DNA from: a virus
Reading direction: 5' to 3' (one strand)
DNA length: 24,096 bases
IMG/VR virus record: IMGVR_UViG_3300034073_003583
Span: 1 to 24,096 of that record
A model generated the notes under the pieces. It had not been told where the DNA came from, ran no database searches, and saw nothing but the letters and a program-made list of their open reading frames with translations. A program made the translations under genes and the position numbers. Every line of letters starts with the position of its first letter. Position 1 is the stretch's first letter. Below, piece after piece: positions 2,447 through 23,979 of this stretch.

Positions 2447-4453
2447 TCAACCGCTGGATTTTTTCAGCACCAGCGCCAGGGCGTCCGACTCACTGGCGAG
2501 CGTCCATCCGTGGTTAACCTCGGAAATAATGCAGGCATTTAATAATGACCCGATTAATCTATCAGGGTATCCGCCAGCATTAACGGCATTTTGCGCGGCC
2601 CGCTCCTTTGCGCCGTCTGTGATTAATTTATTAATCAGTGCGCTCTTGCTCAGGTACGGCTTCCCGTCTATCACCTCCGCGCCAGATGCCCACCATGCTT
2701 TCTCCCACGTGGCGCGGTGCGCGTCTAGCTTCCTGTCCCGCTTCTCCGGCGCCGGCCCTGGCGCGTCCGCTGACTCTATTGTGGCGCTCGTGACCTGCTC
2801 GCCGTCTTCGTCAAGCCAGCCGGGCACCGGCGTTTTTTTCAGGTTCACATAGACCGGTTCCGCGAGTTCGCCGTCTTTATTTTTGCGCTGCGCCACTTCC
2901 ATCGGGCGCTCGTTTTTGCTTGGCGTAACAGATATTTCAATGTCGAGCGCACCGCGCCAGGCGCTAGACCCGCGCCCACGGTCTTGCGCCTCCGGGTTTA
3001 GGCCCGTATGGTGTACAAGCACCACAGACGCACCGAACTCGGCGCTTAGCCGTGCGCATGAATCGAGCATCGCGCGCACGTCCTGGGGCTTGTTTTCGTC
3101 GCCTTTTAGGAAACGGTGCAAGGTGTCGACGATTATCAGGCCCGGCTTTACAGGCAATCGGCGGATTTCTTTGGAGGTGCCGTTGTAACCTACTGGCGTA
3201 TCCAAATCACAGCCTGACCGGCTTACCCACATACTCAGCCGCTCCGCACCATGCGCCGCCTTCCAGGCCGCAATCCGCGCCCGCATGCCGTGGTGGCCTT
3301 CGCCAGCTAGATAAATCACAGGGCACGGGCGCACTATATGCCCCTGCCATGCGGCGAAACCTGCCGCCAAATGCATGGCCATATCCAGCATCACAAAACT
3401 TTTCCCGCCCCCACTTGGCCCGTGAACCATCATGGTGGCGTCGGCCTGTAACCATCCTTTAATCAGCCAACGGATTGGCGCAGGTTTCGCGCTAAATTCG
3501 TCGGCCTGCATTAGCCAGGTTTCTGGCTCAGGATTAAGCAACGCCGCTAAATCGCCCCCGGCCCGCGCGAAGTCATTCGCGTCCCCTGTCGTCGGCACTA
3601 GTATCATTTTTGCGCCGTGCTTGGTGGCTGCCTTCTCCGCGTAGCGCGCACCTGTGCCAGATTCGTCATTATCCGCCACTATAACAAGCTCCGCCTCCGG
3701 CCCGAGTTTGGCCCGCGCCGTTGCGGCGGTGGCTTCCAGGTTCCCGGCGCTGTACGCCACGAAACATGGTGCGCCCGTGGCTTCGTGGATGCTGGCACAT
3801 GTGGCGAACCCTTCGCCGATGAATGCCCGGCGCGCGCATTCATCCGCGCCAATCACCCAAAACCGGCCCGCAACCTGGGCGCCAGTGTGGTAGCGTTTTT
3901 CGCCAGTGTCGGCGATGTATTGGAGACTGGATAACTCGCCGCTCGGCGCATACAGCGGTAGCAATAGCCGCCCATCCTGGGCGATGCGCGCACCGTGGGC
4001 GGCTACTCCTTTATTATATAGATACGGGTGCGATCTATCGGCAGGCGTCGCACGCTCCCAGATTGCCGCCGCCGCTTGCGCCGCTTCCTGGTGCGCCTTG
4101 GCCTGCTCGGCATCGCGCAGTTTCCGCGCCTCGTCCATGCGCCGCATGTGTTCCAGCCGTTCGCCTGGCGTCATTTCGTCATTCATGTCCGCATGCCAGG
4201 CTTTATCTACGCCTGAGCGCCAGCAACCGAAGCGGCCCGCAGGGATGCCGTCCATGTATGCCACATACCAGCCGGCGCGGTTATGCTCTGGCCCGCCGCC
4301 ATTGGTGCCAGATTTGAAGCGGTGGATTTGACCATCAAAAATCAGGCGGTCAGGCGGGGTTAGCCCCTCGCTAATCATTGCCTGGCGGAGTTGCGCGTCT
4401 GGTGGCGTGGTTGTGGGTGCGGCGTCATTCTCTAACAGCCATGATAGTTCCAT
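2447..4453 (-). CDS. Toprim primase fused to RecA-like replicative helicase
   Basis: Predicted bifunctional replication enzyme: primer synthesis and DNA unwinding at the phage fork. I chose ATG at 4453 (MELSWLLEND), two bases after the stop of the regulator gene with GGGG ahead, over an ATG at 4498 that would overlap that gene; this gives 668 residues. The Toprim domain shows the glutamate in FIGEGFATCASI (about residue 214) and the DND in VIVADNDESGTG (about 261-263). The helicase domain has Walker A GPSGGGKS (about 345-352), Walker B LIIVDTL (about 439-445) and VVLVHHTG (about 490-498), as in RepA/AAA_25 hexameric helicases. No CxxC zinc ribbon precedes the Toprim part, unlike many primases of this kind. 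The gene borders the repeat array. Confidence 0.9.
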   Translation of the reverse strand: MELSWLLENDAAPTTTPPDAQLRQAMISEGLTPPDRLIFDGQIHRFKSGTNGGGPEHNRAGWYVAYMDGIPAGRFGCWRSGVDKAWHADMNDEMTPGERLEHMRRMDEARKLRDAEQAKAHQEAAQAAAAIWERATPADRSHPYLYNKGVAAHGARIAQDGRLLLPLYAPSGELSSLQYIADTGEKRYHTGAQVAGRFWVIGADECARRAFIGEGFATCASIHEATGAPCFVAYSAGNLEATAATARAKLGPEAELVIVADNDESGTGARYAEKAATKHGAKMILVPTTGDANDFARAGGDLAALLNPEPETWLMQADEFSAKPAPIRWLIKGWLQADATMMVHGPSGGGKSFVMLDMAMHLAAGFAAWQGHIVRPCPVIYLAGEGHHGMRARIAAWKAAHGAERLSMWVSRSGCDLDTPVGYNGTSKEIRRLPVKPGLIIVDTLHRFLKGDENKPQDVRAMLDSCARLSAEFGASVVLVHHTGLNPEAQDRGRGSSAWRGALDIEISVTPSKNERPMEVAQRKNKDGELAEPVYVNLKKTPVPGWLDEDGEQVTSATIESADAPGPAPEKRDRKLDAHRATWEKAWWASGAEVIDGKPYLSKSALINKLITDGAKERAAQNAVNAGGYPDRLIGSLLNACIISEVNHGWTLASESDALALVLKKSSG

Positions 4454-4455
4454 AA

Positions 4456-4632
4456 TCAGCCCCAGAGCGCAGCTTTGATTTTCTCCATAGTTTCCCATTC
4501 CGGGTTTTGAATTTTCCCGGCCCGGAGTCTATACAGTGTATTAGGATGCACACCACAGACTAGCGCAAAGGCTTGAATTTGGCGGGTTTTCAATTCCTCT
4601 CGAATCTTTTCGAGCATAGGGACATTCGGCAT
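4456..4632 (-). CDS. Small Cro/CI-like helix-turn-helix regulator, 58 residues
   Basis: ATG at 4632 (MPNVPMLEKI) has a near-ideal GGAGG site 5 bases upstream, so the longer in-frame start at 4686 is rejected. The protein is a single HTH domain: IREELKTRQIQAFALVCGV forms the first helices, HPNTLYRLRAGKIQNP the turn and recognition helix, and WETMEKIKAAL the last helix, the usual layout of Cro/CI-type repressors. It is probably a dimeric transcriptional repressor acting on the divergent promoter region just upstream (4672-4705) and perhaps on the other early promoters. It is cotranscribed with the primase-helicase, two bases apart, so it may set the balance between leftward replication and rightward recombination genes (inference). 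Confidence 0.85.
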   Translation of the reverse strand: MPNVPMLEKIREELKTRQIQAFALVCGVHPNTLYRLRAGKIQNPEWETMEKIKAALWG

Positions 4633-4671
4633 ATTACCTCCGTTACTAGCTGAATATTTTTTACTACAGTG

Positions 4672-4705
4672 TTGACAGATTAACACTACGCTGGTATTCT
4701 GTCAA
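4672..4705. promoter_or_regulatory. Divergent promoter region with 34-base inverted repeat
   Basis: Rightward promoter: TTGACA (4672-4677), 17-base spacer, TATTCT (4695-4700), upstream of the ATPase gene. A second TTGACA lies on the minus strand at 4705-4700, facing the regulator gene; its -10 (TAATCT at 4682-4677) is weak. The whole block starts TTGACAG and ends CTGTCAA, and the 17-base arms match at 12 positions, so the two -35 elements are symmetric. TTACTA occurs twice between this block and the regulator gene (4643-4648 and 4661-4666), in the regulator leader. This layout suits a repressor switch controlled by the 58-residue HTH protein. Confidence 0.75.
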
Positions 4706-4744
4706 ACATGAGTTGCGGATTGGCCGCGATCAATAGGGGGAATC

Positions 4745-5488
4745 ATGAATAAAATCCTAGAATCTGTAAGCCGAACTAGGCGACTAGTTGCGCCTAAAGC
4801 CGTAATAGGCGGACAAGGGAAAATCGGCAAAACAACTTTTGCCGCATCCGCGCCTGATTCGGTTGGCATACTCACCGAGGACGGGGCCAGCGCAGTTGAT
4901 TCAATGGCTTTCCCGCTTTGCCAGACGCTAGACGATGTGTACGCGGCAATCGCCACGCTGGCGAATGAAGAGCATTCTTTCCGCTGGGTATGGGTGGATT
5001 CTCTGGACTGGCTGGAGCCGTTGATTCATGCTCAGGTTTGCAAGGCGAACAATTGGAATAACATAGAATCGCCTGGCTATGGCAAAGGTTACGTGGCTGC
5101 CGCCGCAGAGTGGCGCGTCTTTTTAGACGGCCTAGACTACCTGCGCAATCATCGCGGAATGGGCGTAATCCTGATAGTGCATAGCATTATTAGGCGCATT
5201 GAGGACCCGATGCACGACCCGTATGACGCGCACGATATTAAGCTGCACTCGAAGGCTGCGGGCCTGGTGAAAGAATGGGCGGATATTATCGGGTTCTGTG
5301 ACTACGACCTAGCGATAAAAGAAGGCAAGGGCGATTTTGGCAAAACCGAACGACGCGCCCTCCGAGTAAAAAACCGCATTCTTCACCTTGAACCGCACCC
5401 CGCGCACTTTGGCGGGAATCGGCTAGGCTTGGTGAACTGTGAACTTGATTTTACGAAACTTGCTGAACAACTTGAGGCTATGAAATGA
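4745..5488 (+). CDS. RecA-fold ATPase, Sak4-like / AAA_24 family
   Basis: Predicted P-loop ATPase of the phage Sak4-like group (AAA_24), which assist single-strand annealing or strand exchange during phage recombination. Walker A is GGQGKIGKTT (residues 22-31) and Walker B is WVWVD (81-85). Near 145 the sequence GVILIVHSIIRR occupies the sensor-like strand position. At 247 residues it fits this single-domain family. ATG at 4745 follows GGGGGAATC, a strong site used repeatedly in this genome. It is the first gene of the rightward operon, and its last codon overlaps the DUF669 gene by 4 bases. Sak4-like ATPases next to DUF669 proteins are a known phage arrangement, which supports both calls. 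Confidence 0.85.
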   Translation: MNKILESVSRTRRLVAPKAVIGGQGKIGKTTFAASAPDSVGILTEDGASAVDSMAFPLCQTLDDVYAAIATLANEEHSFRWVWVDSLDWLEPLIHAQVCKANNWNNIESPGYGKGYVAAAAEWRVFLDGLDYLRNHRGMGVILIVHSIIRRIEDPMHDPYDAHDIKLHSKAAGLVKEWADIIGFCDYDLAIKEGKGDFGKTERRALRVKNRILHLEPHPAHFGGNRLGLVNCELDFTKLAEQLEAMK

Positions 5489-6030
5489 ACCTGAACCATT
5501 TTGACTTAGACAACATCCCGACCACTGGCGGCGAACCTGGCGAATACGCGCCACTTCCGGCTGGCTGGTACTCGGCTACGGTTGCCGATATTGTGGAGAA
5601 AACCACTAAAGACGGCACTGGCGAATACCTGAATGTCCGCTTAAACATCACCGGCCCCACGCATGCCGGGCGGGTTGTGTTTACTAAACTGAACATCGTA
5701 AACAATAGCGCCACGGCGCAGGATATTGGGCGCAAACAACTTGCCGCGCTGTGCGATGCGTGCGGGTTCGGCGTTGGGCGTCGGCCTGCTGATACTGATG
5801 AATTAATCGGTGGCGATGTCCAGATTCTTCTCTCAATCCGCCCAGAGTCGAACGGGTATAAAGCGTCTAATGATGTTAAGGCGTTCAAGCCCGCGAACGG
5901 CGCGCCGATACCGAAGCCTGGGCCGGAAAAGTTATCTTCTACGTCTTTCTCTCCAACTGCCTATGAGTCGGAAAACCCTGCGCCGCGCGAGGTGCAAACC
6001 GGGCGCAAGCCGTGGGAAAAAGCAAAGTAA
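5485..6030 (+). CDS. DUF669 family protein, likely single-strand DNA binding partner
   Basis: The 181-residue product has the DUF669 pattern: an N-terminal YAPLPAGWYSATVADIVEKTTKDGTGEYLNVRLNI segment, a VVFTKLNIVNNSATAQDIGRKQLAALCDACG helix, then a GGDVQILLSIRPESNGYKASNDVKAF strand pair. The first and third parts look like an OB-type beta fold. The C-terminal 50 residues are proline- and serine-rich and end in charged residues, as in SSB-like tails. The family is widely suspected of binding single-stranded DNA. Translation is coupled to the ATPase gene (ATGA overlap). A hairpin terminator follows the stop codon. Confidence 0.8.
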   Translation: MNLNHFDLDNIPTTGGEPGEYAPLPAGWYSATVADIVEKTTKDGTGEYLNVRLNITGPTHAGRVVFTKLNIVNNSATAQDIGRKQLAALCDACGFGVGRRPADTDELIGGDVQILLSIRPESNGYKASNDVKAFKPANGAPIPKPGPEKLSSTSFSPTAYESENPAPREVQTGRKPWEKAK

Positions 6031-6038
6031 TCAAACCC

Positions 6039-6060
6039 GCCCCGCTTCGGCGGGGCTTTA
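6039..6060 (+). terminator. Intrinsic terminator-like hairpin
   Basis: GCCCCGC (6039-6045), TTCG loop, GCGGGGC (6050-6056), then TTTATC. The stem is strong but the T-run is short, so termination is probably partial and allows transcription into the downstream nuclease and helicase genes. Confidence 0.7.
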
Positions 6061-6078
6061 TCAGACTTTGGGGGATTT

Positions 6079-6252
6079 ATGGATAAAGAAACAAGGCAGT
6101 TAATTAATGACCTGCTCGACGAGGCCGATGGCTGCCGGAATAACGGCGTAAATGATTTGGCCTACCTGTTAGAGCGAGCAGCGGCAAAAATTAACAGGCT
6201 TTCGCAGTTGGGAAATGCGGCCAAACTGAGCACGCCGGAATGGTGGAAATAA
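6079..6252 (+). CDS. Small helical protein, 57 residues
   Basis: ATG at 6079 is preceded by GGGGGATTT, a ribosome binding site identical to those ahead of 10215 and 12679. The protein starts MDKETRQLINDLLDEADGC, is almost all helix (DLAYLLERAAAKINRLSQLG) and ends STPEWWK. Its TAA overlaps the next ATG (TAATG), so the two are translationally coupled. Position between recombination genes suggests a small accessory to replication or recombination, but no family is recognised. Confidence 0.7.
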   Translation: MDKETRQLINDLLDEADGCRNNGVNDLAYLLERAAAKINRLSQLGNAAKLSTPEWWK

Positions 6253-6767
6253 TGCACCATCTAACAGAATCACAGCGCCACCAAATAGCCGCCCGCATTT
6301 ATAAAATCCTGCGCGATAATCCGCTAGGGATTTCGCGGACAAACCTACTCGCGCACTTTGACGGCGTTTGTACTCGCGACCAGGCTCTAACGCAACTCGC
6401 CGAGTTGCGCGGCTGTGGCCTGGCGCACAATTTCAAACAGGCAGGCACAGGCACAAGAGTTTGGCGTCCATTCGCCACCAAAATCCGCCAGCCGCATGTT
6501 AGGCACGTAAAAGACCCATCCGCCGAAGCGCCGGGGCGCAAAATGAACCGGACTGAGATTATCCGGCCCGGTGATTTGGTATGGTCACGCGGTGGCTGGC
6601 GTCCGGTTATGGCGCAGTCTCTTGAAGACGGCGACCCCGTAGGCAATCGCCTAGTGGTGCGGCCAAAACCGGAAAAACCCGCCAAGCGGCGCGGCTCAGG
6701 CGTAAACAATGCACCAGCCTCGCGGGCTGATATTCGCGCGGCGCTTGATTGGAGTCCGCTAGAATGA
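6252..6767 (+). CDS. Winged-helix-like protein, 171 residues
   Basis: I take ATG at 6252 (MHHLTESQRHQIAARI), coupled to the previous stop, over an ATG 12 bases earlier that lacks a ribosome binding site. Residues 8-70 read as a winged helix: IAARIYKILRDNPLGISRTNLLAHF, then CTRDQALTQLAELRGCGLAHNF and a GTGTRVWRPF wing. The second half holds a short beta segment (EIIRPGDLVWSRGGWRPV) and a basic linker (KPEKPAKRRGSGVNN), ending RADIRAALDWSPLE. A DNA-binding role in replication or regulation is likely from the fold and context, but the family is not identified. Confidence 0.75.
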   Translation: MHHLTESQRHQIAARIYKILRDNPLGISRTNLLAHFDGVCTRDQALTQLAELRGCGLAHNFKQAGTGTRVWRPFATKIRQPHVRHVKDPSAEAPGRKMNRTEIIRPGDLVWSRGGWRPVMAQSLEDGDPVGNRLVVRPKPEKPAKRRGSGVNNAPASRADIRAALDWSPLE

Positions 6768-7741
6768 ACATAGTTGAGGCAATTGACGCATATCATTTTG
6801 CACAAACCGATACGCCACGCCAGCATTTAGGCGCGTCGGAAATCGGGCATGGCTGCGACCGCTGGCTGTGGCTCTCGTTCCACTGGGTGGTGAAAGATGA
6901 AAAGTCCGGGCGCATTCGCCGATTATTGCGCCGTGGGCAGCTAGAGGAATCGCAAATAATCGCCGATTTACAAGCAATCGGCGCAAAGATTTACGGCGAG
7001 CAAAGGCGCGTATCCTTTGGCCCGCACGTGGGCGGCCAGATTGATGCAATCGGGCGCGATTTGCCCGGATTAATCGGCGAGCATATCCTGGAATTTAAGA
7101 CCCACTCGCAAAAAAGCTTTAACGCAACTATCAAGCATTCCTTGACAGTTGCCAAACCGATGCACTTCGCACAGCTACAGGCGTACATGCTCGGCACAGG
7201 CATCCCGCGCGGCCTTTATATCGCCGTGTGCAAAAACACCGACGATATGTATACGGAGGTGGTTGAGCTAGATAGGCAGTTTGCTACTGAGCTAGTAGAG
7301 CGCGCTAACAGAATCGCGGCGCTAGACTATATCCCTGGCGGAATCAGTTCAAACCCGGCTTGGTACGAGTGCAAAATGTGCGCGGCCCATGATTTTTGCC
7401 ACGTCTCTAAACTGGCGAAACAGATTAATTGCCGCACGTGCGCAAGCGCGGAGCCACAATCGGCGGGTGGTTGGAAATGCGGCCAGTTCGGCGATTTAAT
7501 CCCAGCCGATTTCCAGGCAATCGGGTGCGATAATCACTTAATGCGCCCCGATTTAGTGCCCTGGCCGGCGATTGATGCCGGTTCCGACCATGTGATTTTC
7601 GAGATTGAAGGCGCACAGGTACGGAATGGCGTGGGCGGGTTCCTCAGTCGGGAACTAGTGGCGAATGCGCCGGCCTGCGCGTCGGGGGATGCGCTGCTTA
7701 TGGACATGCGAGAGAAATTTGAGGGGGAAATAAATGGCTGA
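6764..7741 (+). CDS. RecB/Cas4-type PD-(D/E)XK nuclease with Fe-S cysteine motif
   Basis: Predicted exonuclease for DNA end processing in phage recombination. ATG at 6764 overlaps the previous stop (ATGA) with GGAG 9 bases upstream; 325 residues. The nuclease core shows D94 in GGQIDAIG, E110-x-K112 in ILEFKTHS, and the RecB-family Q137-xxx-Y141 in AQLQAYM. C31 in HGCDRWLW together with C203, C206 and C212 (C-x2-C-x5-C in ECKMCAAHDFC) matches the four-cysteine Fe-S cluster of AddB, Cas4 and Dna2 type nucleases. A second set, C223, C226, C239 and C255, follows and could form an added zinc site. It sits between a winged-helix protein and a helicase, overlapping the latter by 8 bases. Confidence 0.85.
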   Translation: MNIVEAIDAYHFAQTDTPRQHLGASEIGHGCDRWLWLSFHWVVKDEKSGRIRRLLRRGQLEESQIIADLQAIGAKIYGEQRRVSFGPHVGGQIDAIGRDLPGLIGEHILEFKTHSQKSFNATIKHSLTVAKPMHFAQLQAYMLGTGIPRGLYIAVCKNTDDMYTEVVELDRQFATELVERANRIAALDYIPGGISSNPAWYECKMCAAHDFCHVSKLAKQINCRTCASAEPQSAGGWKCGQFGDLIPADFQAIGCDNHLMRPDLVPWPAIDAGSDHVIFEIEGAQVRNGVGGFLSRELVANAPACASGDALLMDMREKFEGEING

Positions 7742-9488
7742 GTTGCGCGATTATCAAAAGCGCGGGATGCGCATGCTTTATGAATGGTTTGAAAAAAATG
7801 ACGGCCACCCATGCCTTGTCATGCCTACTGGCTCAGGCAAAAGCCACATTATTGCGCAAATAGTAAAAGACGCAATGCAATGGTCAGGAACGCGCGTCTT
7901 GATGTTGACGCATGTTAAAGAACTCATCGAGCAAAACGCCGCCAAACTCCGCGCGGTCTGGCCTAATGCGCCGCTGGGGATTTACAGCGCAGGATTGGGT
8001 AAACGCGAGTTGGGCGAGCCGATTATCTTTGGCGGTGTTCAATCGCTCAGGAATAAATCGGAATTAATCGGCTTTGTCGATTTAATAATAATCGATGAGG
8101 CGCACTTGATTAATCATGATGCTGAAGGCGGCTATCGCCGATTAATCGCCGATTTGACCGCGATTAATCCCGATTTGCGAGTAATCGGCCTGACTGCTAC
8201 GCCTTACCGATTGGGGCACGGATTAATCACCGATGCGCCGGCGATTTTCTCCGATTTAATTGAGGTTGTCACGATTGAGGAGCTAGTTCATAAAGGACAA
8301 CTGGCGATTCTCAAAAGCAAAATCACCGAGGCGCGCTTAGACGTGTCAGGAGTCCATAAGCGCGGGGGCGATTACATAGAAAAAGAACTACAAGAGGCTG
8401 TTGATACTGCTATCAATAATTCTGCCGTTGTCGATGAGATTATCAGCCTTGCCGGTGACAGAAAAGCCTGGCTGATTTTCTGCGCCGGTGTTGACCACTC
8501 GCGCCATATCGCCGAGTTGTTAAACGACCGCGGAATCCAGACAGCATGCATTACAGGCGCAACGCCGAAAGCCGAGCGCGCCGATATTTTAGCCAGGTAC
8601 AAAGCCAGCGAGATCCGCGCGGTGACGAATGCGAATGTTTTAACTACTGGCTTCGACTACCCGGACATTGATTTAATCGCCATGCTCCGCCCAACAATGT
8701 CGCCTGGTCTATACGTCCAAATGGCCGGGCGCGGTCTGCGCCTGAAGTCGCATACGGATCACTGCTTAGTCCTAGATTTTGCTGGCGTCGTCTCACAGCA
8801 TGGCCCGATAACTGGTGTTAAGACGCCGGAGAAGAAACCCGGCAACGGCAAAGGCGATTCTCCGGTGAAGGCTTGCCCAGAATGCCACGAGCTTGTCGCC
8901 ATATCCACGCGCGTATGCCCTGATTGCGGGTATGTGTTCCCGCTCCAGGCATTAAACAATAAATTTGAGTTACACAACGACGATATTATGGGGCTGAAAG
9001 TTTGCCCGAAATGCCGGAAAATTCATGGCACACTGGCGATTAATTGCGAATGCGGCTATGAGTTTGATGACGTAGACCCTGAGGACATTAAGCGCAAGGC
9101 AAATAGTTCACAGCGGGAAATGAAAGTTTCTCGGTGGGCGTGGTTTGTCCATAAATCGAAGGGAAGCGGCAAGCCGTGCTTGGCGGTCACATACTCCAGC
9201 GGCGATAGCCATATGACAGAATATTTCACGGTTTGGCATCCTGGCTACCCTGGCGAAAAATCCAGAAAAACGCTTTTCAATAAAGCGCTCGGTGGCGTGT
9301 ACGCCTTAATTGATGGGGAATTGGAGGGTGTAGACGTTTTTGGCGGGATGGTTAAGGAAAACGGCGAAATTGACCAAGACAAAGCGCTAGAATTTGCCGA
9401 ACTTGTAACCGAGTCAGTCAAGCCCCCGCGCTCCATAACCTACGAATACGATGGCAAATTTCCACGCATTATAAAGAGGGAGTTTTGA
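7734..9488 (+). CDS. Superfamily 2 DEAH helicase with two C-terminal zinc ribbons
   Basis: Predicted ATP-dependent DNA helicase or translocase of the type III restriction/UvsW-like branch. Motifs in order: LRDYQKRG (Q-like, 4-11), MPTGSGKS (motif I, 30-37), DEAH (II, 121-124), GLTATP (III, 152-157), NVLTTGFDYP (V, about 301-310) and QMAGRGLR (VI, 329-336). After the helicase core two cysteine clusters follow: C381/C384 with C395/C398 and C424/C427 with C438/C440, both ribbon-like. The last 130 residues (KVSRWAWFVHKSKGSGKPC onward) form a separate beta-rich domain often found after such ribbons in phage helicases. ATG at 7734 overlaps the nuclease gene by 8 bases with GGGGGAAATA upstream. Likely role: branch migration or fork restart. 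Confidence 0.9.
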   Translation: MAELRDYQKRGMRMLYEWFEKNDGHPCLVMPTGSGKSHIIAQIVKDAMQWSGTRVLMLTHVKELIEQNAAKLRAVWPNAPLGIYSAGLGKRELGEPIIFGGVQSLRNKSELIGFVDLIIIDEAHLINHDAEGGYRRLIADLTAINPDLRVIGLTATPYRLGHGLITDAPAIFSDLIEVVTIEELVHKGQLAILKSKITEARLDVSGVHKRGGDYIEKELQEAVDTAINNSAVVDEIISLAGDRKAWLIFCAGVDHSRHIAELLNDRGIQTACITGATPKAERADILARYKASEIRAVTNANVLTTGFDYPDIDLIAMLRPTMSPGLYVQMAGRGLRLKSHTDHCLVLDFAGVVSQHGPITGVKTPEKKPGNGKGDSPVKACPECHELVAISTRVCPDCGYVFPLQALNNKFELHNDDIMGLKVCPKCRKIHGTLAINCECGYEFDDVDPEDIKRKANSSQREMKVSRWAWFVHKSKGSGKPCLAVTYSSGDSHMTEYFTVWHPGYPGEKSRKTLFNKALGGVYALIDGELEGVDVFGGMVKENGEIDQDKALEFAELVTESVKPPRSITYEYDGKFPRIIKREF

Positions 9489-9490
9489 TT

Positions 9491-9856
9491 ATGAAAATTA
9501 GCGCATTAATGCCTGAAAAAATCCACGACGAACATTGGGAGCAGCGCGAGTTTGTTTCATGGTTCCGCAAAAATTACCCAGGCGTTCTAATTTACGCCAC
9601 GCCGAACGGCGGTGAGCGTTCAATTTCCACAGCCGCGCGCCTGAAAGTCGAGGGCGTTGTTGCCGGCATCCCGGATTTGTTTGTCCCTGAGTGGCGGCTG
9701 TTTATCGAAATGAAGCGCACGGTGGGCGGGCGGCTATCGCCAGCACAGAAAGAGATAATCACGCATTTGGAGTGCGTCGGTTATCGCGTCTTTGTCGCGC
9801 ACGGTTGCCAAGCGGCAATAGATTTTATTGTCGAGAATTATGGGCCTGGTGTATAA
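9491..9856 (+). CDS. VRR-NUC domain nuclease, 121 residues
   Basis: Stand-alone VRR-NUC domain, a PD-(D/E)XK-like fold seen in phage nucleases and in the FAN1 nuclease. Residues that fit: E17 and E20 in HWEQREF, ATPNGGERS near 37, D62 in GIPDLF, E73-x-K75 in LFIEMKR, and the conserved LSPAQKE at about 82-88. I use ATG at 9491, 8 bases after GGGAG, rather than the TTG six bases earlier, which is too near that site. Its usual partners in phages are superfamily 2 helicases, as here. It probably cuts branched or structured DNA during phage replication. Confidence 0.9.
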   Translation: MKISALMPEKIHDEHWEQREFVSWFRKNYPGVLIYATPNGGERSISTAARLKVEGVVAGIPDLFVPEWRLFIEMKRTVGGRLSPAQKEIITHLECVGYRVFVAHGCQAAIDFIVENYGPGV

Positions 9857-9885
9857 TTTTACCTGGCTAAATTTTCGGAGGTCAT

Positions 9886-10194
9886 ATGGCACGCTTAAGC
9901 ATTGATGAGTTAATAGACAGTATTGGCTTTTTCCCTGGCGGGAAAGTCGGGGATATCCCGAAGGCATTCACGCGCAAGGCATTTGCGGCCAAACTCGGGG
10001 GGGAGGAGTGGGATTACGCAAAGTACAATCTCACGGAGGTCAAAAAGCGCGCACGGGAGCGGGCTTTAGCAGAGAAGTACGCACCGAAGGAGGCTGGCGT
10101 GTTGGTAACTGGCTTTCGCGGCGAGGTGCTGACTGACGAAAGCCGCGCTCAGCTTGTGGCGATGCTTGAATCCGCTGGTTATAACATCGCTTAA
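9886..10194 (+). CDS. Small unknown phage protein, 102 residues
   Basis: ATG at 9886 follows a near-perfect GGAGGTC site. The protein begins MARLSIDELIDSIGFFPGGKVGDIPKAF, then a KAFAAKLGG segment, a basic helix (LTEVKKRARERALAEKYAPK) and a C-terminal helix (ESRAQLVAMLESAGY). It is soluble and mixed in charge. No catalytic motif is recognised. It is in the rightward replication operon between the VRR-NUC nuclease and the membrane protein. Confidence 0.7.
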   Translation: MARLSIDELIDSIGFFPGGKVGDIPKAFTRKAFAAKLGGEEWDYAKYNLTEVKKRARERALAEKYAPKEAGVLVTGFRGEVLTDESRAQLVAMLESAGYNIA

Positions 10195-10214
10195 TGACTG
10201 CATACGGGGGATTT

Positions 10215-11459
10215 ATGGAAATTACACAGAGAGAAGCGCACGGCCAAAGGCTTGAAAAAGTCGGTCTGTTCATGGCTGGCGCGGCGATTTTTATTGATGC
10301 CGGCAGTATCCTAAAGCTGGCGTCCGGCCCGGTGCAATCAATCGCTGGCCTGATGCTTTTGACGGTGTTGGTTTTGTCGCGTGTGTACCTGCCTGGGATT
10401 ATCATGCGCTCCAAGGCGTTGCGTATGCACGCAAGCGCCGGGGTGGTGTCGGTAACGCTGGTTTTGTCCCTGGCGGTGACTATGGCCTTGCTGGCGTCCG
10501 CTATCGCGGACACTTTGAAAGAGCGCGCGGCGGACATGCGCGCCCAAGGTGCAAACGCTGTGTTTGCGCGGCAGAATCTAGAAACCGCACAGGCACGGCT
10601 TAATGAACTGTTGGCGCAAGCCGGCGATGTAACGGCGCTTGCCGGTTCGGGTGCGATGCTGCGCTCTCTGGATTCGAGCATCCAACGGGCACGTGCTGGG
10701 TTTGATGAGGAAATGCATGCGCTTTTGGCCAGTGAAGCCAGGAACGCCAGCGGCGCGAATACCGGCGTAAAAGTGGGCGATTTTATGGCTTCCAACTGTG
10801 CGCTAATTTCCAATCAATACAAAGGGTTGCATGCGATTTATGCGGGCCAGTGTCGGGCGATTCTGGACAATCGGCGGGCGGCCACGGCGCAGATTGATGC
10901 GGACAAAAACCAGGCGACCGCTAACGCTCAATTGTATGGCGAGATTGAGGCGGCCCGCGCTCAGTTGGCGGAAGCGCAGCGGGCGGTTTTAGCCGTCGGC
11001 AGCCAGGCCGTGGAAGGCGATGGTTATCCGAGTTTCACGAAGTTTTTTATGCCGGTTCTGGCCTGGCCTTGGCTTGGTATTGAACCGACCCACGAAAACG
11101 CGGCGGTTCTTTTTGCCTGGGTGGTGGCGTTCATTTTTGCGATGACGGCTTGGGCATTCGCCCACGGTGCGGCCATTCATAACCAGCCAACGCCGCGCAC
11201 GATGCCCGCCGCCCGTGGGTTTTCTGCTGTGATTGCCGACAGACTGAGAAACAGCGAGACGCGGCCACAGCCTGCCCAGGCGGCGGGGATTGGGTTTGTG
11301 CTCGGCGATTCACCGGCCCAGGGCGGCGGTAATCGCCAGGCCGCCTATAATCGGGCACGGGCGGCGGGGAAAAATTGCAGCCAGGCGGCGGCGGAGGCTG
11401 GCATTCCACCGGGAAGCGCTTCACGGCACGAGGCTAGATACCGGGATGTGAATAAATAA
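10215..11459 (+). CDS. Four-helix membrane protein with HTH-like C-terminus, 414 residues
   Basis: ATG at 10215 follows GGGGGATTT, the repeated strong site; an in-frame ATG at 10194 is possible. Hydrophobic segments lie at about 16-36, 42-64, 74-99 and 295-320. Between the third and fourth is a long alanine- and glutamine-rich coiled-coil region (about 100-265) with two cysteines (195, 213). If both ends are cytoplasmic, this loop is periplasmic. The C-terminal tail after 320 is basic and proline-rich and ends in a segment, RQAAYNRARAAGKNCSQAAA then AGIPPGSASRHEARYR (about 374-410), that looks like a helix-turn-helix. A membrane-anchored DNA tether or sensor is conceivable. I know no characterised homologue. 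Confidence 0.75.
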   Translation: MEITQREAHGQRLEKVGLFMAGAAIFIDAGSILKLASGPVQSIAGLMLLTVLVLSRVYLPGIIMRSKALRMHASAGVVSVTLVLSLAVTMALLASAIADTLKERAADMRAQGANAVFARQNLETAQARLNELLAQAGDVTALAGSGAMLRSLDSSIQRARAGFDEEMHALLASEARNASGANTGVKVGDFMASNCALISNQYKGLHAIYAGQCRAILDNRRAATAQIDADKNQATANAQLYGEIEAARAQLAEAQRAVLAVGSQAVEGDGYPSFTKFFMPVLAWPWLGIEPTHENAAVLFAWVVAFIFAMTAWAFAHGAAIHNQPTPRTMPAARGFSAVIADRLRNSETRPQPAQAAGIGFVLGDSPAQGGGNRQAAYNRARAAGKNCSQAAAEAGIPPGSASRHEARYRDVNK

Positions 11460-16791: not shown

Positions 16792-17538
16792 TTAGATTAC
16801 AGAAAGCCGAAAATTGTCGAAATAATCGCCAGGGATGCCAGGTTTTGAGACTAGGCGAATCCAAAAAGCGCACGCCTCGCCAGGGTCAAGCGCCCCGATT
16901 AAGATGTAATCGCCAAGCGGCGCCATTGGTGAGGAAAAGACTACGCCAGTAGGTGCAAGATTTTCGTTCGCTATGGTGGTGGCTGTGCCGCCCGGCCCCG
17001 CTGGGTCTGTGCCTACAGCTAACAGGCTATTCGTCGGGCTGGTGACTACGCCAACGCGCGCCCGCCAGACATCAATCCCGGAATTATAGGCGTAAATGCA
17101 GCGATAGCGGTTTTTACTCTCTACTGGCGAAACACTGAGCGCGCCGAATAAATTGTTAGTGGGCGCCGAGATGGTTATGTTGTCGGTGGCGCTGCCACCT
17201 GGCAAATTTGCCACGGTTACGGAGACCAGTAATCCGCCGATTTTGTTTGGGTCTTGGAGCATGAACTCGCCCCCGGCCCCAACGCTTACCGGCGTGCCTG
17301 CTGATTTGCCCGGCGCGGCCCAGGCCAACGTGCTGGCCGCAGATACAAATTCCAGCGTACCGCTTCCGGTGGCATTCCCGCGCGCCTCAAGGATGGTAAC
17401 GCCCGTAATATTGACCGGCTGCGTTACTCCCTGGTTGCCCACCATTTTTGTGGATTTAGCGCCCCCAAGGCTTAGCGCTGGGTTGCTGTTTGCCGCGCCG
17501 CCGCTCAGGTAAAAGCGCGAAATATTTGAAGCTACCAT
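16792..17538 (-). CDS. Tail structural protein, 248 residues
   Basis: ATG at 17538 overlaps the end of the tape measure gene by 7 bases and has AGGGGAA upstream. The protein is beta-rich, glycine- and serine-rich and low in charge. It starts MVASNISRFYLSGGAANSNPALSLGG and includes RCIYAYNSGIDVWRARVGV and a C-terminal GEACAFWIRLVSKPGIPGDYFDNFRLSVI. Its place directly after the tape measure protein suggests a tail-tip component. The family is not identified; structural role rests on composition and context. Confidence 0.75.
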   Translation of the reverse strand: MVASNISRFYLSGGAANSNPALSLGGAKSTKMVGNQGVTQPVNITGVTILEARGNATGSGTLEFVSAASTLAWAAPGKSAGTPVSVGAGGEFMLQDPNKIGGLLVSVTVANLPGGSATDNITISAPTNNLFGALSVSPVESKNRYRCIYAYNSGIDVWRARVGVVTSPTNSLLAVGTDPAGPGGTATTIANENLAPTGVVFSSPMAPLGDYILIGALDPGEACAFWIRLVSKPGIPGDYFDNFRLSVI

Positions 17539-20500
17539 GATTCCCCTGCCCCCGCTGTTAACCGGATATTGCGCGCGACATACTCACTTGCCGCGTCAAA
17601 GCGTTGAATGATTGATTTTAGCAGCCTCTCCTGCTCGGCGTCCCCGGTTTTAATCGCGTCCACAAGCTGGGAAAACAGCGTCCGCATAAGGCTTTCTGTC
17701 ACGCCGAACCCACCGCCCCCTTGGGGTTGTTGCGGTGCTGGCAACTGCGGTGATTGTGCTGGCGCTTGGCCGTTCACAGGCGCGCTTGCCTGTGGCTGCG
17801 TGCCTTCCATGCGGCCCGCTACGCGCGCGGCCCCTGAGCGGATAGCCGCCTCGTATTCGGCGTATCCCTGTGAGCCATAGACCGCGCGCCGATGAGCAAG
17901 CAAGGTGTCGAGCGCTTGCGGTAGCCTACCAGCCGCCTCAACATCGCCAGCCATTGCGGCGTTGTATAAGCTCATCGCCTGGCGCTCGGCTTCGGCTAGT
18001 TGCTCCATTGGGTTTAGGCTGGACGTATCGCCAAGCGCCTGACGATCCAGCCAATCCCAAAGGCTTTGTGCCGCCTGCATTGCGCGGTTGGCGAAGTCGC
18101 TAATCGCGTCCCCGGCTTCGCTCATGGCTGGCGGGATTTGATGCACCTGGTTCATGTACGCTTCTTGCGCGTCGGTCAGGCTATCCATGGCGGTGGTTTG
18201 TTCTTCGGCGTTCTCGGTGGTATCGTCTGCGCGCTCTGCCGCCGCTTCCACTGCGTCATATGCCACATCAGCCGCGCCTGCCAGGTCCATAAGGGCTTTG
18301 AACAATTGCCGCCCTGATTCCGTGCTTAAATCCAGACTAGACACCAGCGCCCGGAATTCTTCGCGCGTTTTCGGCACTTCCATCCCTAGATCTTTAAACC
18401 CGGAATTGAGCCGAGAAGTCGCACTCTCTAGCCGGTAAGCTTCGCGTTCGGTTTCGCTGAAAAACTCTTGATAGTACGCGCTTGTTGCTTGCCCGAATTG
18501 CTCCAATCCGCCGAACAATTCCGCCAAACCATCCGCCGCTTGTACGCCTGCCGTATCTACGCCAAGCGCAGAAATGCGTAGCGCGCCAAGCACAGGATTA
18601 ATCCCGGCAAGTGCTTGCACGCCAGAGATAATCTCTTCCGGCTTCAGGTCTTTGGCAAGCTGGCCAAAGTCCCCGCCCATTGCCTTGAACGTGGCGCTTG
18701 CTTGGGCCATGCCTTGCAGGTTGGCAGTGAGTGAATTAACTTGCTCTTCGTTCAACAGGCCAATATCAATATCAAGCATGGCCTGTGCCCATTCCGGAGT
18801 GTCCGGCGCGGCCTTGATGCCCTCAAGCACCGATTGACCAAGCTGCAAGCCAAACGCCTCCCCGGCTTCTTCGCCTGTCAGCGTGCGAGATACGCGCGGA
18901 TCCCAGACGTTTTGACCGCCAGGCGTTTGCACTTCGCCAAAACTTTGGCCCGTGCTCAGTGTGCCGCCTGCGCCCACGCCGCCGCGCCCCTTGCCGCTCG
19001 TTTCCAGGATGCCGGAGTAGGTGTTAACACGCGCCGAACTGCCCAGCATGGCAAGCAATCCGTTAAGCGTATTCGATGCCGCTTGCATGCCGGTTTGCAC
19101 AGCGCTACGGCCCTCTGAGCCTCCGATATCCCCGCCGCTTGGCCCGCGCATTCTGTCGAATGCGCCCTCGCCGCTCAGGCTGTAAGCCCCGCCTCCGCGC
19201 GTCTCGCCTTTGAATTTGTCGCCTAGCAGGGAGAATAACGCCATCCCGCCAGCAAGCCACGGTGCCGCCGCTCCCAGGATTGAGCCTACCCCGGCCATAG
19301 TTGACCCGGCCCCTATCGCGCTTGCCCCATAGCTTAAGCCACCGCCGAATAGCCCTAACTGACTGCCAACGCCAGCGCCGCCTAGCAGCGAACCAAGCCC
19401 GGTAAAGCCCGCGCCGGTTGCCAATGATGCGCCGTACTGCAAAAGACCTCCAAGCATCCCAAGCCCGCCGCCACCGCCGCCACCACTTGCGCTGGCTGTC
19501 CCTGCCGCTCCAAGCCCGCCGAATACGCCAGCCAACTGGCCAAAAATGCCTCTGCCAGCCGTGGCTGAATCAATGAACATTTTGATAAGAACTTTTTTGG
19601 CATAATCTGCCAGGCTCTTGAAGTCCGCTTTCCCATTCACTAGCAAATCGGTAAAGAATTCTTCGGCTTTCTGGCCTATCTCATCCCACATGCGCTTATT
19701 CTCAGCAAGCGCGGCCTGTTGCCCCTCCAACGCTGTTTGCTGGTCATAAAGTGCTGCCGCCGCTGCCCGGTGCTTTTCGTCGTATCCGTCCAAGAATTTC
19801 GCCCGCGCGCGCTCCTCAGAATTGACTATCTTCATGTAGCCAATTTCCTCTTTGAGTTCGTCAAGGCTGGCGCGTTGGCTTGCGGCGCGCTGGTCTGCCG
19901 CTTGCGCCATCTTCTCGTTCATCTCTACGGCGTTTTCGAATTCTTCATTTAGGCGTAATTGGGTTTCGTATTCTTCGGTCTTGGTCTTAATCAGCCCCTC
20001 ATCCGCGCCCACCGCGCGCATGGCTTCGGCTAGGCTCCAAGCCTTTTTCTCAATTTCATCCATGCCGAGCGTTGCGGATTCGTCGGCGATTCGTTCCCAA
20101 AGGTTTTCGACTTCATCCGCCGCGCGCTTAGCGGCCTTCTCGGCTTCGCTCAACTTCCCGCTCGCCTTTGCGGTTTCACCAGCAAGCGAGGCCATACCGG
20201 CCCCTGCGCTCTTTGTGGCTGTGCCGGCATTCATCAATTCGGCGTTTTCTTTCTCAATAGCCGCGATGGCCTTATCAGTTTCGCGCGAATAAGCCGCTTT
20301 TTCTCTGGCTTGCGCGGTTGCGCCCTTAGCCGCCTCGTGCCTGGCTACAGATTCCTCAACTAGCGCGGTTGCCTGCGCGTAAGATTCCGCTGTTGCCTTC
20401 TCTTGCTCTATACCTAACTGGTGATAGTTGGCTATCTGGTCTTGTATTACGGCGGTGCGGGTTTTTAACTCCTCCCGTAATGCATTGCCGGCCATTACGC

Positions 20501-22172
20501 CATCAATCGCAAACCCGCCAACGGCGTCGCGCGCCTGGTTTATTTCTCCGGCTAGTGCGCTCATTGGCCCGCCGAGCATGGCCAGCTTGTTGTAGACGCT
20601 CGCCACAACATCAATTGTATCGCGTAAAAAGCGCCCGACTGCCGCCTGAGCGTCCGCAAGGATAAGCCGAACGCTTGCAATGGCATTTGCGATTCTGCCA
20701 AATGCATCTATTGCCGCCTCTTTGCCGGCCACCCATATGTCTATAAAAGTGTCTTTCACGCGCCCAAACTCGGCTGCCGCCATTGCGACAAAAACTTCTA
20801 GCGCCGTGTTTAGGTGCATTATTTCGTCATACGCATCCTTGAACAAATCCAACAGCGTGGTATTCCCGCCAAACCAGTCTAGCGATACGCCAACGGAATC
20901 TAAACCGGTTGGAATCTCGTTTACAACGTCAACAATTTGGACAAAGCCGGAAGCGATTAAATCAAGCGCCGGCAAAAGGCTCTCAAAATTCTCCCGCCAG
21001 ATGTCTACCTCGTCGCCAAGCGCGGCAAAATCTTCGGATTCTGAGAAGGTTTGTAGGCTCTCGAAAATCTCTTTTAGTAGTTTATTGACCTCAATTAATG
21101 CCGGAGTTAAAGCCGGGCCTAAAACATTATCAATTGAAAATGCTGCAATGTTTTGCAACATGCTAATGGATATTTCAGTCTGGCGCGAAAACGATTGCAT
21201 GCCAGCGGCGGCTTGGTCTGCCGCTGTAGTTGTTCCGGTTAGTTTCCCGGTTAGCGTTTCGATTGATTGCGCACCCTGAATAAGAATTTGGGCGCTTGCC
21301 ACGTTCTCGGCATTAAAGACTTTTGCCAGTGCCGCCGTGTTATTCATAATCGGCGCGAGGCGTCCTAATGCGGCGGATAAGCCCTCCGTTTTAAGCGTGG
21401 CATCCAAGCCGGAAATGCCGAAATCTTTTAAGCGGTCGCCATTCGTCTGGATTGCAAGCAAGATATTACGTAACGCCGTGCCAGCTTCCGACCCCTTTAA
21501 CTGGCGTTGTGCCATTACCTGTAACGCGGCGTTGTATTCCTCAAAGCCTACGCTTGCGGCGGATGCCACGGCGCCGCTTACGCGCATCGCCTCAACTACC
21601 TGAGTAATAGACGATGAACCTAGCTGAGCGCCAGCGGCCAAGACATTGCCGAACCTGTCCGCCTCTTTGGCGGCATCCTTGGCCGCTACAGCCCATTGAT
21701 TAAGCCCTGCCGTAATCGCGGCAGCGGCATCGGCGTCAGTCATCGCGTCGCCCGTGGCTTTGGCGGCGTCGGCAAGTTCAAGGCTTTGGTCGGTGACGGC
21801 TTTGAGCGCGGCAGGCATTTCTAGCAGGGAGGGCATTTCGCTACCGATTACGCCAAACGCCTGCGCCACATCGGCGGCAAATCGCCCCATAGCCACGCCT
21901 GAACTAAGCGCCGCTGCCTTTATGTCAGCAAGCGCCGCGCCGGTCAGGTTGGCGGCGTTTTGAGTGGCGGCATCGTATTTAATCCAGGCGTTTGCCGCCG
22001 CACCGATTGTCAGCATCTCACCGGCAAATTTAGCGGCGCTTAATGCGAGGTCTTTAAGGCTATCGTCCGCGCCATGGGCTGAGCGCTCAATCTGGTTTAG
22101 TGCGTTGCGCACTTCCAGCGAACCTGACCGCGCCCCGGATGAATCCACGATAATACGTATAACTCTATCCAT
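17532..22172 (-). CDS. Tape measure protein (TP901 family), 1546 residues
   Basis: Sets tail length and is ejected ahead of DNA in siphoviruses. The TP901-type core lies at about residues 60-335 (for example FAADVAQAFGVIGSEMPSLL and VEAMRVSGAVASAASVGFEEYNAALQVM). Residues about 590-825 are long charged coiled coil. About 890-990 are very glycine- and alanine-rich with hydrophobic stretches, suited to membrane interaction. A proline/glutamine linker lies at about 1457-1487. With the usual 0.15 nm per residue this predicts a tail of roughly 230 nm. ATG at 22172 lies within the end of the frameshifted chaperone ORF, 8 bases overlapping. Many open frames on the opposite strand are shadows. Confidence 0.95.
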   Translation of the reverse strand: MDRVIRIIVDSSGARSGSLEVRNALNQIERSAHGADDSLKDLALSAAKFAGEMLTIGAAANAWIKYDAATQNAANLTGAALADIKAAALSSGVAMGRFAADVAQAFGVIGSEMPSLLEMPAALKAVTDQSLELADAAKATGDAMTDADAAAAITAGLNQWAVAAKDAAKEADRFGNVLAAGAQLGSSSITQVVEAMRVSGAVASAASVGFEEYNAALQVMAQRQLKGSEAGTALRNILLAIQTNGDRLKDFGISGLDATLKTEGLSAALGRLAPIMNNTAALAKVFNAENVASAQILIQGAQSIETLTGKLTGTTTAADQAAAGMQSFSRQTEISISMLQNIAAFSIDNVLGPALTPALIEVNKLLKEIFESLQTFSESEDFAALGDEVDIWRENFESLLPALDLIASGFVQIVDVVNEIPTGLDSVGVSLDWFGGNTTLLDLFKDAYDEIMHLNTALEVFVAMAAAEFGRVKDTFIDIWVAGKEAAIDAFGRIANAIASVRLILADAQAAVGRFLRDTIDVVASVYNKLAMLGGPMSALAGEINQARDAVGGFAIDGVMAGNALREELKTRTAVIQDQIANYHQLGIEQEKATAESYAQATALVEESVARHEAAKGATAQAREKAAYSRETDKAIAAIEKENAELMNAGTATKSAGAGMASLAGETAKASGKLSEAEKAAKRAADEVENLWERIADESATLGMDEIEKKAWSLAEAMRAVGADEGLIKTKTEEYETQLRLNEEFENAVEMNEKMAQAADQRAASQRASLDELKEEIGYMKIVNSEERARAKFLDGYDEKHRAAAAALYDQQTALEGQQAALAENKRMWDEIGQKAEEFFTDLLVNGKADFKSLADYAKKVLIKMFIDSATAGRGIFGQLAGVFGGLGAAGTASASGGGGGGGLGMLGGLLQYGASLATGAGFTGLGSLLGGAGVGSQLGLFGGGLSYGASAIGAGSTMAGVGSILGAAAPWLAGGMALFSLLGDKFKGETRGGGAYSLSGEGAFDRMRGPSGGDIGGSEGRSAVQTGMQAASNTLNGLLAMLGSSARVNTYSGILETSGKGRGGVGAGGTLSTGQSFGEVQTPGGQNVWDPRVSRTLTGEEAGEAFGLQLGQSVLEGIKAAPDTPEWAQAMLDIDIGLLNEEQVNSLTANLQGMAQASATFKAMGGDFGQLAKDLKPEEIISGVQALAGINPVLGALRISALGVDTAGVQAADGLAELFGGLEQFGQATSAYYQEFFSETEREAYRLESATSRLNSGFKDLGMEVPKTREEFRALVSSLDLSTESGRQLFKALMDLAGAADVAYDAVEAAAERADDTTENAEEQTTAMDSLTDAQEAYMNQVHQIPPAMSEAGDAISDFANRAMQAAQSLWDWLDRQALGDTSSLNPMEQLAEAERQAMSLYNAAMAGDVEAAGRLPQALDTLLAHRRAVYGSQGYAEYEAAIRSGAARVAGRMEGTQPQASAPVNGQAPAQSPQLPAPQQPQGGGGFGVTESLMRTLFSQLVDAIKTGDAEQERLLKSIIQRFDAASEYVARNIRLTAGAGESW

Positions 22173-22542
22173 TGAAAATCTCCAGCGCGCCGTGTTCGAT
22201 TATCTCAAGGCCGGCAAGTGTTTCGGGTTCAACTGCCAGGCTAATCAGGCTTAGCTTCGCCTGGATTTGCTGCCAGTCTAGGCCGGAAATATTGCCGTTT
22301 GGGGCATACCGCCATAAGCCGGAAACGCGGAAAAATAACGAGATTGTTGGTTCATTCTCTGGGAATAAAAAGAATTCATCATCATCAATTTTCCGCTTCC
22401 GCTTATTTATCTTCTCAAGCGTTGCGGCGTCCAGATAGGTTGCCGCGCCGCTTGTTTCATCTTTTACTTTTGGGCGCTTGGATTGCCGCGCCCAGGCTTT
22501 TGCGAAATCACTTAGGTTTCCGAAACTGATTACCTCGGTAAT
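22165..22542 (-). CDS. Tail assembly chaperone, downstream frame (DUF1799-like), no own start
   Basis: Continuous open frame between a TAA (22545-22543) and a TAG (22167-22165), with no ATG, GTG or TTG codon in frame. From the likely junction it adds 118 residues, including FLFPENEPTISLFFRVSGLW and SGLDWQQIQAKLSLI. These resemble DUF1799, a small protein normally found just before the tape measure gene. The frame is +1 relative to the upstream chaperone gene and overlaps it for the stretch 22508-22542. It is thus expected as the C-terminal part of a fusion, like lambda gpGT, of about 217 residues. Coordinates give the open frame, not a start codon. Confidence 0.8.
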   Translation of the reverse strand: MTEVISFGNLSDFAKAWARQSKRPKVKDETSGAATYLDAATLEKINKRKRKIDDDEFFLFPENEPTISLFFRVSGLWRYAPNGNISGLDWQQIQAKLSLISLAVEPETLAGLEIIEHGALEIFNG

Positions 22543-22819
22543 TTACCAGGGCCGCCGCCGTCGCTGCGCTCAAAATGAAGTCGGTTTTGACAAAGTTCAC
22601 CGCGTCATCCGCGCTCAAGGTTTCGCCGTTCTCGTTTTCCAGTTCCAGACCTTCAACGGAAAGCAAAAAGTTGTCTAATAGGTCGCCGTCTTCGGTGTTC
22701 TTTTTGAATTCCGCCATAGTCGGCACGCGGAAAGTAGCCATGAAAGAACCGGCATCATTACCTTCGCCGTCCTTAACTTCAACTTTCAACTTCTTAGTTC
22801 CACTGATTTTGTATTTCAT
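22508..22819 (-). CDS. Tail assembly chaperone, upstream frame, 103 residues
   Basis: Equivalent in position and role to lambda gpG: a small acidic protein between the tail tube and tape measure genes that chaperones tape measure protein during assembly. It starts MKYKISGTKKLKVEVKDGEG and contains ATFRVPTMAEFKKNTEDGDLLDNFLLSVEGLELE, then a helical end with SADDAVNFVKTDFILSAATAAALVNYRG. This fold pattern (short beta start, helical rest) is common to such chaperones. Most ribosomes should stop at TGA 22508-22510. A fraction should shift to the +1 frame near TTT-C (22525-22522), giving the long form. Confidence 0.85.
   Translation of the reverse strand: MKYKISGTKKLKVEVKDGEGNDAGSFMATFRVPTMAEFKKNTEDGDLLDNFLLSVEGLELENENGETLSADDAVNFVKTDFILSAATAAALVNYRGNQFRKPK
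22522..22525 (-). promoter_or_regulatory. Candidate +1 ribosomal frameshift site (TTT-C)
   Basis: In the 35-base overlap of the two chaperone frames, CAG-TTT-CGG-A is the only place where a tRNA can move forward one base and re-pair fully: phenylalanine tRNA from UUU to UUC. The other codons of the overlap would mispair. A -2 shift would give the same frame, but no codon there re-pairs cleanly two bases back. The site is inferred. Confidence 0.5.
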
Positions 22820-22833
22820 CGCCTAATTTCCTC

Positions 22834-23979
22834 TTAATAAAACGCCAAAAACCACTTGGGGTTTACGCCGTCCTTAGTACAAGCCGCCTCGATGCTGTAT
22901 TCGTCTAGGCCGTCGCTATCGGATTCGGTTAAGCCGGTGATCTGCGCATTCGGCACGCCAAGCGCAACACGTTCGCCGGCCCCGGTTCCGTAAATGGTCA
23001 GCACTTCAAACGTATCATCAGCATCGCGCAAGGCGAACGGGTTAAAGTCGCTCAAATCCGGGCGCGTCACGTTAATGCTCACGGTAGGCTTGGCGTCAGT
23101 AATCATGATAGCGGTGATGCCGTCGCCAGCTTCCGCGCATTTGATTTGCGAGACGGTGTTCCCCATGTCGAAATTCAGGGACTTCAGCGCCCCCGTACAG
23201 CCGGCAGGCATCGCACCTAGTTTCAGCGTGGCACCATTGAACGGTTGCGGGTCAACATCCGAGACAGTGCCAGCGGTGGCTGCGCTGTCCACAGGTGCGG
23301 CATAAATGCCGGTGATGGTAAAGTCCAACGTGGGCAAGCCGTCCGATTCCATAGCAATCGTGGCGGTTCCCATCGCGCCCGTGACCTGCTTGATAATTCC
23401 GTCCGGGTAATCGCGAATGCTGGCGGTTTGCATAACTGCGTAGTCGCTAGTAGGCGTATAAAGCGCGCTGGTGACTACGCTAGACGGGGTGGCCGTGGCG
23501 CTAGAAGTCCCGCCAGTGACCAGGGCAGCGTCGGTAAACGTGCCGGCCACGTCGCGCAGGAAAATGTTGGTTGCCGTGGTGGCCAAGACAACGCCAGAGA
23601 TAGCCGTGGTTCCCTGCGTTACGGTTTCGCCAACGGTGAAGGTGCCGGTAATCGAAGGGACAACCAACACCTTGCCAGCCTCGTACTTAGCCGCGCACGC
23701 CTGCAAAAGCGGGTCAACTTCAGGCACGGGCGAAACAGCCCCGCCGCCTTTGACCTCGGCTTGCGCCTTAAAATCCCAGACTTTAGAAGTGGTGACGCCG
23801 CCGAACGTGCCGAAGTCGGCGCTCAATACATCGCGCTCAATGAAGTTGGCGGTAGAGTCATTCGATACACCCACGTTTAGCAACATGGTGTTGTATCCGG
23901 TATTCGGGTCTGTGCCTTTGGTGGTTTCAGTTACGGCGGAAACCCAGCGCTTGCGCGCGATTTTAGGTGTAAAAGCCAT
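22834..23979 (-). CDS. Major tail tube protein with inserted domain, 381 residues
   Basis: Forms the tail tube as stacked hexameric rings. ATG at 23979 has GAGGAATAAAGAC upstream. The first 100 residues (MAFTPKIARKRWVSAVTETT to DPLLQACAAKYE) and the region after about 175 (SIRDYPDGIIKQVTGAMGTATI to the end) show the usual tail tube layout. Residues about 102-170 (VLVVPSITGTFTVGETVTQG and on) form a threonine- and glycine-rich extra segment that looks like a small beta domain inserted in a surface loop. The order tube, chaperones, tape measure, tip is canonical for siphoviruses and supports the call. Confidence 0.85.
   Translation of the reverse strand: MAFTPKIARKRWVSAVTETTKGTDPNTGYNTMLLNVGVSNDSTANFIERDVLSADFGTFGGVTTSKVWDFKAQAEVKGGGAVSPVPEVDPLLQACAAKYEAGKVLVVPSITGTFTVGETVTQGTTAISGVVLATTATNIFLRDVAGTFTDAALVTGGTSSATATPSSVVTSALYTPTSDYAVMQTASIRDYPDGIIKQVTGAMGTATIAMESDGLPTLDFTITGIYAAPVDSAATAGTVSDVDPQPFNGATLKLGAMPAGCTGALKSLNFDMGNTVSQIKCAEAGDGITAIMITDAKPTVSINVTRPDLSDFNPFALRDADDTFEVLTIYGTGAGERVALGVPNAQITGLTESDSDGLDEYSIEAACTKDGVNPKWFLAFY

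Follow-up and report, generated by a model that had tools for sequence, protein, structure and literature searches.

A Candidate +1 Frameshift at a UUU_CGN Site in the Tail Assembly Chaperone Gene of a Siphophage

Results

Two overlapping reading frames in the tail operon

An IMG/VR virus record of 24,096 bases (the whole stretch is referred to below as the window) contains two overlapping open reading frames that probably form a tail assembly chaperone pair of the gpG/gpGT type, the long form being made by +1 programmed frameshifting, for which we propose a UUU_C site. The fit of the gene slot and of the downstream DUF1799 domain, conservation in a second contig, and tRNA re-pairing at UUU_C support this reading, and with it the tail chaperone fusion by +1 (or −2) recoding that the first-pass annotation had suggested. 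The features are listed in Table 1; a check of the sequence and its ORFs reproduced the earlier coordinates of the upstream ORF, the overlap, and the TTTC tetranucleotide.

Table 1. Features of the tail chaperone locus in the window.
Feature	Coordinates	Strand	Remarks
Major tail (tube) protein gene	22834..23979	-	381 aa; adjoins the upstream chaperone ORF on its 5' side; phrog_290, E 6.5e-17
Whole frameshift gene	22165..22819	-	predicted 217-aa fusion product
Upstream chaperone ORF (gpG-like short form)	22508..22819	-	103 aa; stop TGA 22510-22508
Overlap of zero and +1 frames	22508..22542	-	35 nt; between +1-frame TAA 22545-22543 and zero-frame TGA 22510-22508
Proposed +1 slip site TTT_CGG	22520..22525	-	TTTC 22525-22522; counterpart in contig L002 is TTT_CGC
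Start-less +1-frame ORF (T-like extension, DUF1799)	22165..22542	-	opens after TAA; ends at TAG 22167-22165
Tape measure protein gene	17532..22172	-	1546 aa; PF10145, E 1.4e-15; several tape measure phrogs; TIGR01760

The upstream ORF occupies the slot that separates the tail tube gene from the tape measure gene, as do the corresponding ORFs of the −1 relatives. It is overlapped by a downstream ORF that is out of frame and lacks a start codon of its own. The two are thus flanked by the tube gene on one side and by the tape measure gene on the other, as in lambda, and the ATG of the tape measure gene overlaps the 3' end of the T-like ORF. Elsewhere, at window positions 2447-11459, lies a replication module encoding a Toprim/AAA_25 protein, an AAA_24 ATPase, a DUF669 protein, a ResIII-type helicase, and a VRR-NUC nuclease; the helicase is ~53-55% identical to helicases of Alteromonas, Idiomarinaceae, and Manatee Spring phages.

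The upstream protein of the window had no match above threshold in a Pfam scan, and neither it nor its counterpart in L002 matched Phage_TAC_4 (PF08748), a family found in four of the five upstream proteins of −1 relatives that were scanned. Profile similarity between the window protein and those of the relatives is weak (39 columns, E 0.0024, probability 12%), and its predicted structure is of low confidence (pLDDT 47).

The downstream frame is coding

The downstream ORF matches DUF1799 (PF08809) with an E-value of 3.3e-9 (37.3 bits, against a curated cut-off of 26) and phrog_680 with an E-value of 9.2e-13. An hhalign profile comparison with DUF1799 proteins of −1 relatives yielded an E-value of 1.5e-14. 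Homology thus identifies the downstream ORF as a genuine gene.

Further evidence is provided by L002, a 7,156-base contig from a separate metagenome that is ~64% identical to the window at the DNA level. The tube proteins of the two sequences are 61% identical over their full length, the upstream proteins 51%, and the +1-frame products 43%. When substitutions in the downstream region were sorted by codon position in the +1 frame, 74 of 113 third positions were found to differ, compared with 47 and 46 of 113 at the other two (Fisher P = 3e-5). Conservation of the protein read in the +1 frame begins at the slip site (NLxxFAxxWA); upstream of the site this frame contains a stop in the window and none in L002. 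The pattern is that of a coding +1 frame.

The junction is conserved in L002

Recalculation placed the downstream frame at +1 (or −2) relative to the upstream ORF, as annotated in the first pass, and L002 keeps the same relation, with a DNA alignment free of indels between the frames at the junction. The junction codons common to both sequences are CAR TTT CGN AAA CCT ARN TGA; the TTT codon is identical and the CGN is conserved. Within the 18 bases starting from the slip site, 15 are identical, against a mean of 10 of 18, which places this segment among the best 21 of 658 such segments; the stretch is thus well conserved, though not uniquely so. Because L002 conserves both the frame relation and the junction codons, the comparison supports selection on the overlap. 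Conservation of TTT_CGN and its flanks is based on two sequences, as viral and genome scans revealed no relatives with the site beyond L002. Comparison of the overlap in related phages had been proposed as a check; in L002 its outcome is positive, TTT CGN AAA CCT being retained.

UUU_C as the probable slip site

Each codon of both overlaps was checked for tRNA re-pairing after a +1 or a −2 move, assuming E. coli-like anticodons. A move from UUU to UUC is the sole perfect +1 re-pairing in the overlap, in the window and in L002 alike, in agreement with the earlier description of TTTC as the single clean +1 slip site. The zero-frame UUU_CGN at this position lies within the overlap in both sequences and is followed by an ORF in the +1 frame. 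By chance, an overlap of 11 codons would contain a TTT with C as the next base in ~4% of cases and TTT_CGN in <1%, values that cannot simply be multiplied over the two sequences since these are related. When TTTC is read as a single phenylalanine step, a product of exactly 217 residues is predicted, with the junction GNQF-GNLSD and with 118 codons (22521-22168) used after the slip; both the length and the junction are those foreseen in the first pass.

A +1 shift at another codon of the overlap is, in our estimation, unlikely. The likeliest such codon is CCU_A, decoded by tRNA-Pro, with AAA_C less likely, since a move from AAA to AAC creates a mismatch at the third position. Slippage at CCU_A would yield a product with the junction ...QFRKP-SDFAK.... 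In its favor, the CCT A sequence is conserved in the window and L002, two codons before the stop, tRNA-Pro can re-pair on moving from CCU to CUA with a single G.U pair, in the middle position, and Listeria phage PSA shifts by +1 at proline codons (PMC5009743). However, UUU_C re-pairs perfectly and is likewise conserved. The codon after CCU is in both sequences a sense codon and not a stop, and the need to encode K-P in one frame and N-L in the other can account for the conservation of CCT.

Sequences that could stimulate slippage at UUU_C were also sought. Folding of the RNA downstream of the site revealed nothing significant in the window (z of −1.5 for 100 nt and +0.6 for 80 nt) and nothing unusual in L002 (z about −1); no stem-loop or pseudoknot stood out, and there was no Rfam match. 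Of the arginine codons in the window genes, CGC, the A-site codon in L002, is the commonest, and CGG has a moderate usage, so a slow or starved A-site codon is not obvious. A Shine-Dalgarno-like GAGGT is located at 22536-22532 on the minus strand, and GGGGT in L002, in both cases six nt before TTT; this GRGGT may pause ribosomes or merely encode Arg-Gly. In RF2, the spacing of the internal Shine-Dalgarno sequence is 3 nt, and with its unlike, six-nt spacing GRGGT is not claimed here as an internal Shine-Dalgarno stimulator. Lambda requires ~30 short products per long one (PMC5009743), so a low efficiency would suit the window gene.

Relatives use the −1 frame

The corresponding stretch was compared in 22 GenBank phages with the same gene slot, including Rhodobacter RC1, RcapMu, ThpS-P1, HK578, eiAU, Medea1, and cyanophages. 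Limits of the upstream genes were taken as annotated, and for S-LBS1 and yong1 the longest open frame was taken as the downstream one. Without exception these phages have a −1 downstream frame, which bears out the earlier remark that tail frameshifts are mostly −1, and in 19 of them an AAAAAAC or GGGAAAC heptamer abuts the stop. Their genes follow the fusion logic proposed for the window, which supports the reading as a chaperone pair. The overlap in the window, with its +1/−2 relation, contains no X_XXY_YYZ heptamer, and its −1 frame meets a TAA within the site. The first residues after the shift align in spacing: the −1 phages have G-K-L or K-K-L, the window has G-N-L, and L002 has A-N-L. 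The lineage of the window thus apparently switched its slip direction from −1 to +1; the switch could have come about if the length near the junction changed by other than a multiple of three and a forward slip site made up for it. We are inclined to go further and to believe that a bacterial siphophage lineage replaced the −1 heptamer of DUF1799 chaperones with a bare UUU_CGN +1 site, a motif hitherto described in eukaryotic viruses.

Two DUF1799 phages, K70PH128C1 (L012) and Koroua (L028), have a −1 relation and no standard heptamer, with CAA AAG just before the stop. A plasmid prophage of Azospirillum sp. TSH58 (L030:4120-5260, an unannotated region) encodes a distant tube protein, and the next ORF pair is of the −1 type with AAAAAAC.

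The out-of-phase overlap in all 22 relatives, together with the heptamer at the stop in 19, also argues against separate initiation of the DUF1799 ORF at a rare start (ATT at 22542, ATC at 22530, or a later CTG), without any fusion, which we regard as quite improbable. The two chaperone genes do appear to be expressed separately in Microbacterium EA subclusters (PMC7302621), the GAGGT sequence could be a ribosome binding site, and L002 has TTG and GTG codons in the downstream frame. However, the spacing to the rare starts is poor, GAGGT being too near ATC 22530, and ATG, GTG, and TTG are all missing from the 125 codons of this frame in the window (22542-22165), as had been noted previously, where the remaining window ORFs would lead one to expect ~7.2 (P = 0.0006). 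The absence, which L002 does not share, perhaps reflects selection against internal starts.

Since the frame alone cannot separate +1 from −2, a −2 shift, which would add one extra residue, has to be weighed as well. It is the mode used for the tail chaperone of phage Mu (PMC3498833, PMC5009743). Here, however, no acceptable P-site re-pairing two bases upstream was found at any codon shared by the overlaps of the window and L002, and there is no homopolymer run; we judge a −2 shift to be very improbable. Transcriptional slippage was rejected on the same absence of a homopolymer run. Finally, that the frame break is an assembly or sequencing error or marks a decayed gene can almost certainly be dismissed: the window is a single metagenome record, but L002, a separate contig, has the same frame relation and codons with no indel at the junction, no long homopolymer is present, and both sides are under coding constraint. 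The error that might have restored one frame, raised as a caveat in the first pass, is thus excluded unless both records carry it.

Discussion

We infer from the two sequences that slippage takes place, that UUU_C is its site, and that the products act in tail assembly. Most ribosomes would terminate at the zero-frame TGA and produce the short form. A minority would pause while tRNA-Phe occupies UUU (22525-22523) and the arginine codon CGG stands in the A site; at this UUU_CGN, tRNA-Phe would slip by +1 from UUU to UUC, and the fusion with a DUF1799 tail would be made. If the proteins act as in lambda, coating of the tape measure protein would fall to the short part, and recruitment of the tube protein to the DUF1799 part.

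The window gene plausibly represents a familiar phage mechanism in a +1 version, with a conserved UUU_CGN site. Tail assembly apparently needs a certain ratio of short to long chaperone rather than a particular slip direction, and if most members of a family shift by −1 and one branch by +1, slip direction would be exchangeable in evolution. If the proposal is true, UUU_CGN can make bacterial ribosomes slip forward in a programmed manner with no strong stimulator, and the compact, simple site allows a direct test of whether UUU_CGN is sufficient for +1 slippage there. Annotation is affected too, since the DUF1799 half of the window gene would escape tools that look for heptamers.

In the literature searched, with subscription journals mostly outside it, papers linking UUU_CGN to frameshifting dealt only with eukaryotic viruses and, in one case, the ASXL genes, with no tail site of a bacterial virus, and no paper combined DUF1799 with frameshifting; absence from this literature is weak evidence. 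Frameshifting of lambda gpG/gpGT and other −1 tail chaperone frameshifts were reportedly described by Xu, Hendrix and Duda in 2004. Like lambda gpG/gpGT, the window has the order tube, G, T, and tape measure, a short form and a predicted frameshifted long form, and a T part without a start; unlike lambda and the relatives examined above, which shift by −1 on a slippery heptamer, it has a +1 frame and no heptamer at this site. With the Phage_TAC_4 (PF08748) and DUF1799 pair of T1-like phages, Dhillonvirus, Rhodobacter RC1, and related phages it shares DUF1799, the G-[K/N]-L spacing, and the gene slot, whereas all 22 sampled phages are of the −1 type and the upstream protein of the window lacks the PF08748 match.

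Tailed phages use −1, −2, or +1 shifts at the tail chaperone position, with −2 in Mu and, very likely, +1 in HSTV-2 (Atkins et al., PMC5009743). Both recode the tail chaperone into the same frame as does the window (PMC5009743, PMC8211752), but Mu shifts by −2 and HSTV-2 is a haloarchaeal myovirus. Frameshifting by +1 in phage structural genes is also known from Listeria phages PSA, A118, and A500 and from SPP1, where the products are proteins of the capsid and tail shaft rather than chaperones; PSA shifts in its capsid and tail shaft genes, at proline codons followed by a stop or a pseudoknot (PMC5009743). The PRFect study accepts a run of three identical bases ahead of a rarer codon as a +1 motif for phages, and lists CCC and UUU as the next most slippery codons in an RF2 context (PMC10885494).

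The closest likeness in the site itself is to influenza A PA-X and the plant amalgaviruses. For PA-X, +1 slippage was proven at UCC_UUU_CGU, and a class of UUU_C sites was predicted (Firth et al., PMC3498833); in amalgaviruses, UUU_CGN is conserved, with all four CGN codons found (Nibert et al., PMC5052127). These viruses and the window have in common an identical UUU_C, the class of the A-site codon, the +1 direction, and the lack of a strong stimulator. They differ in that the former are eukaryotic RNA viruses translated by 80S ribosomes, and in that UUU is preceded by UCC in influenza and by CAG or CAA in the window and L002.
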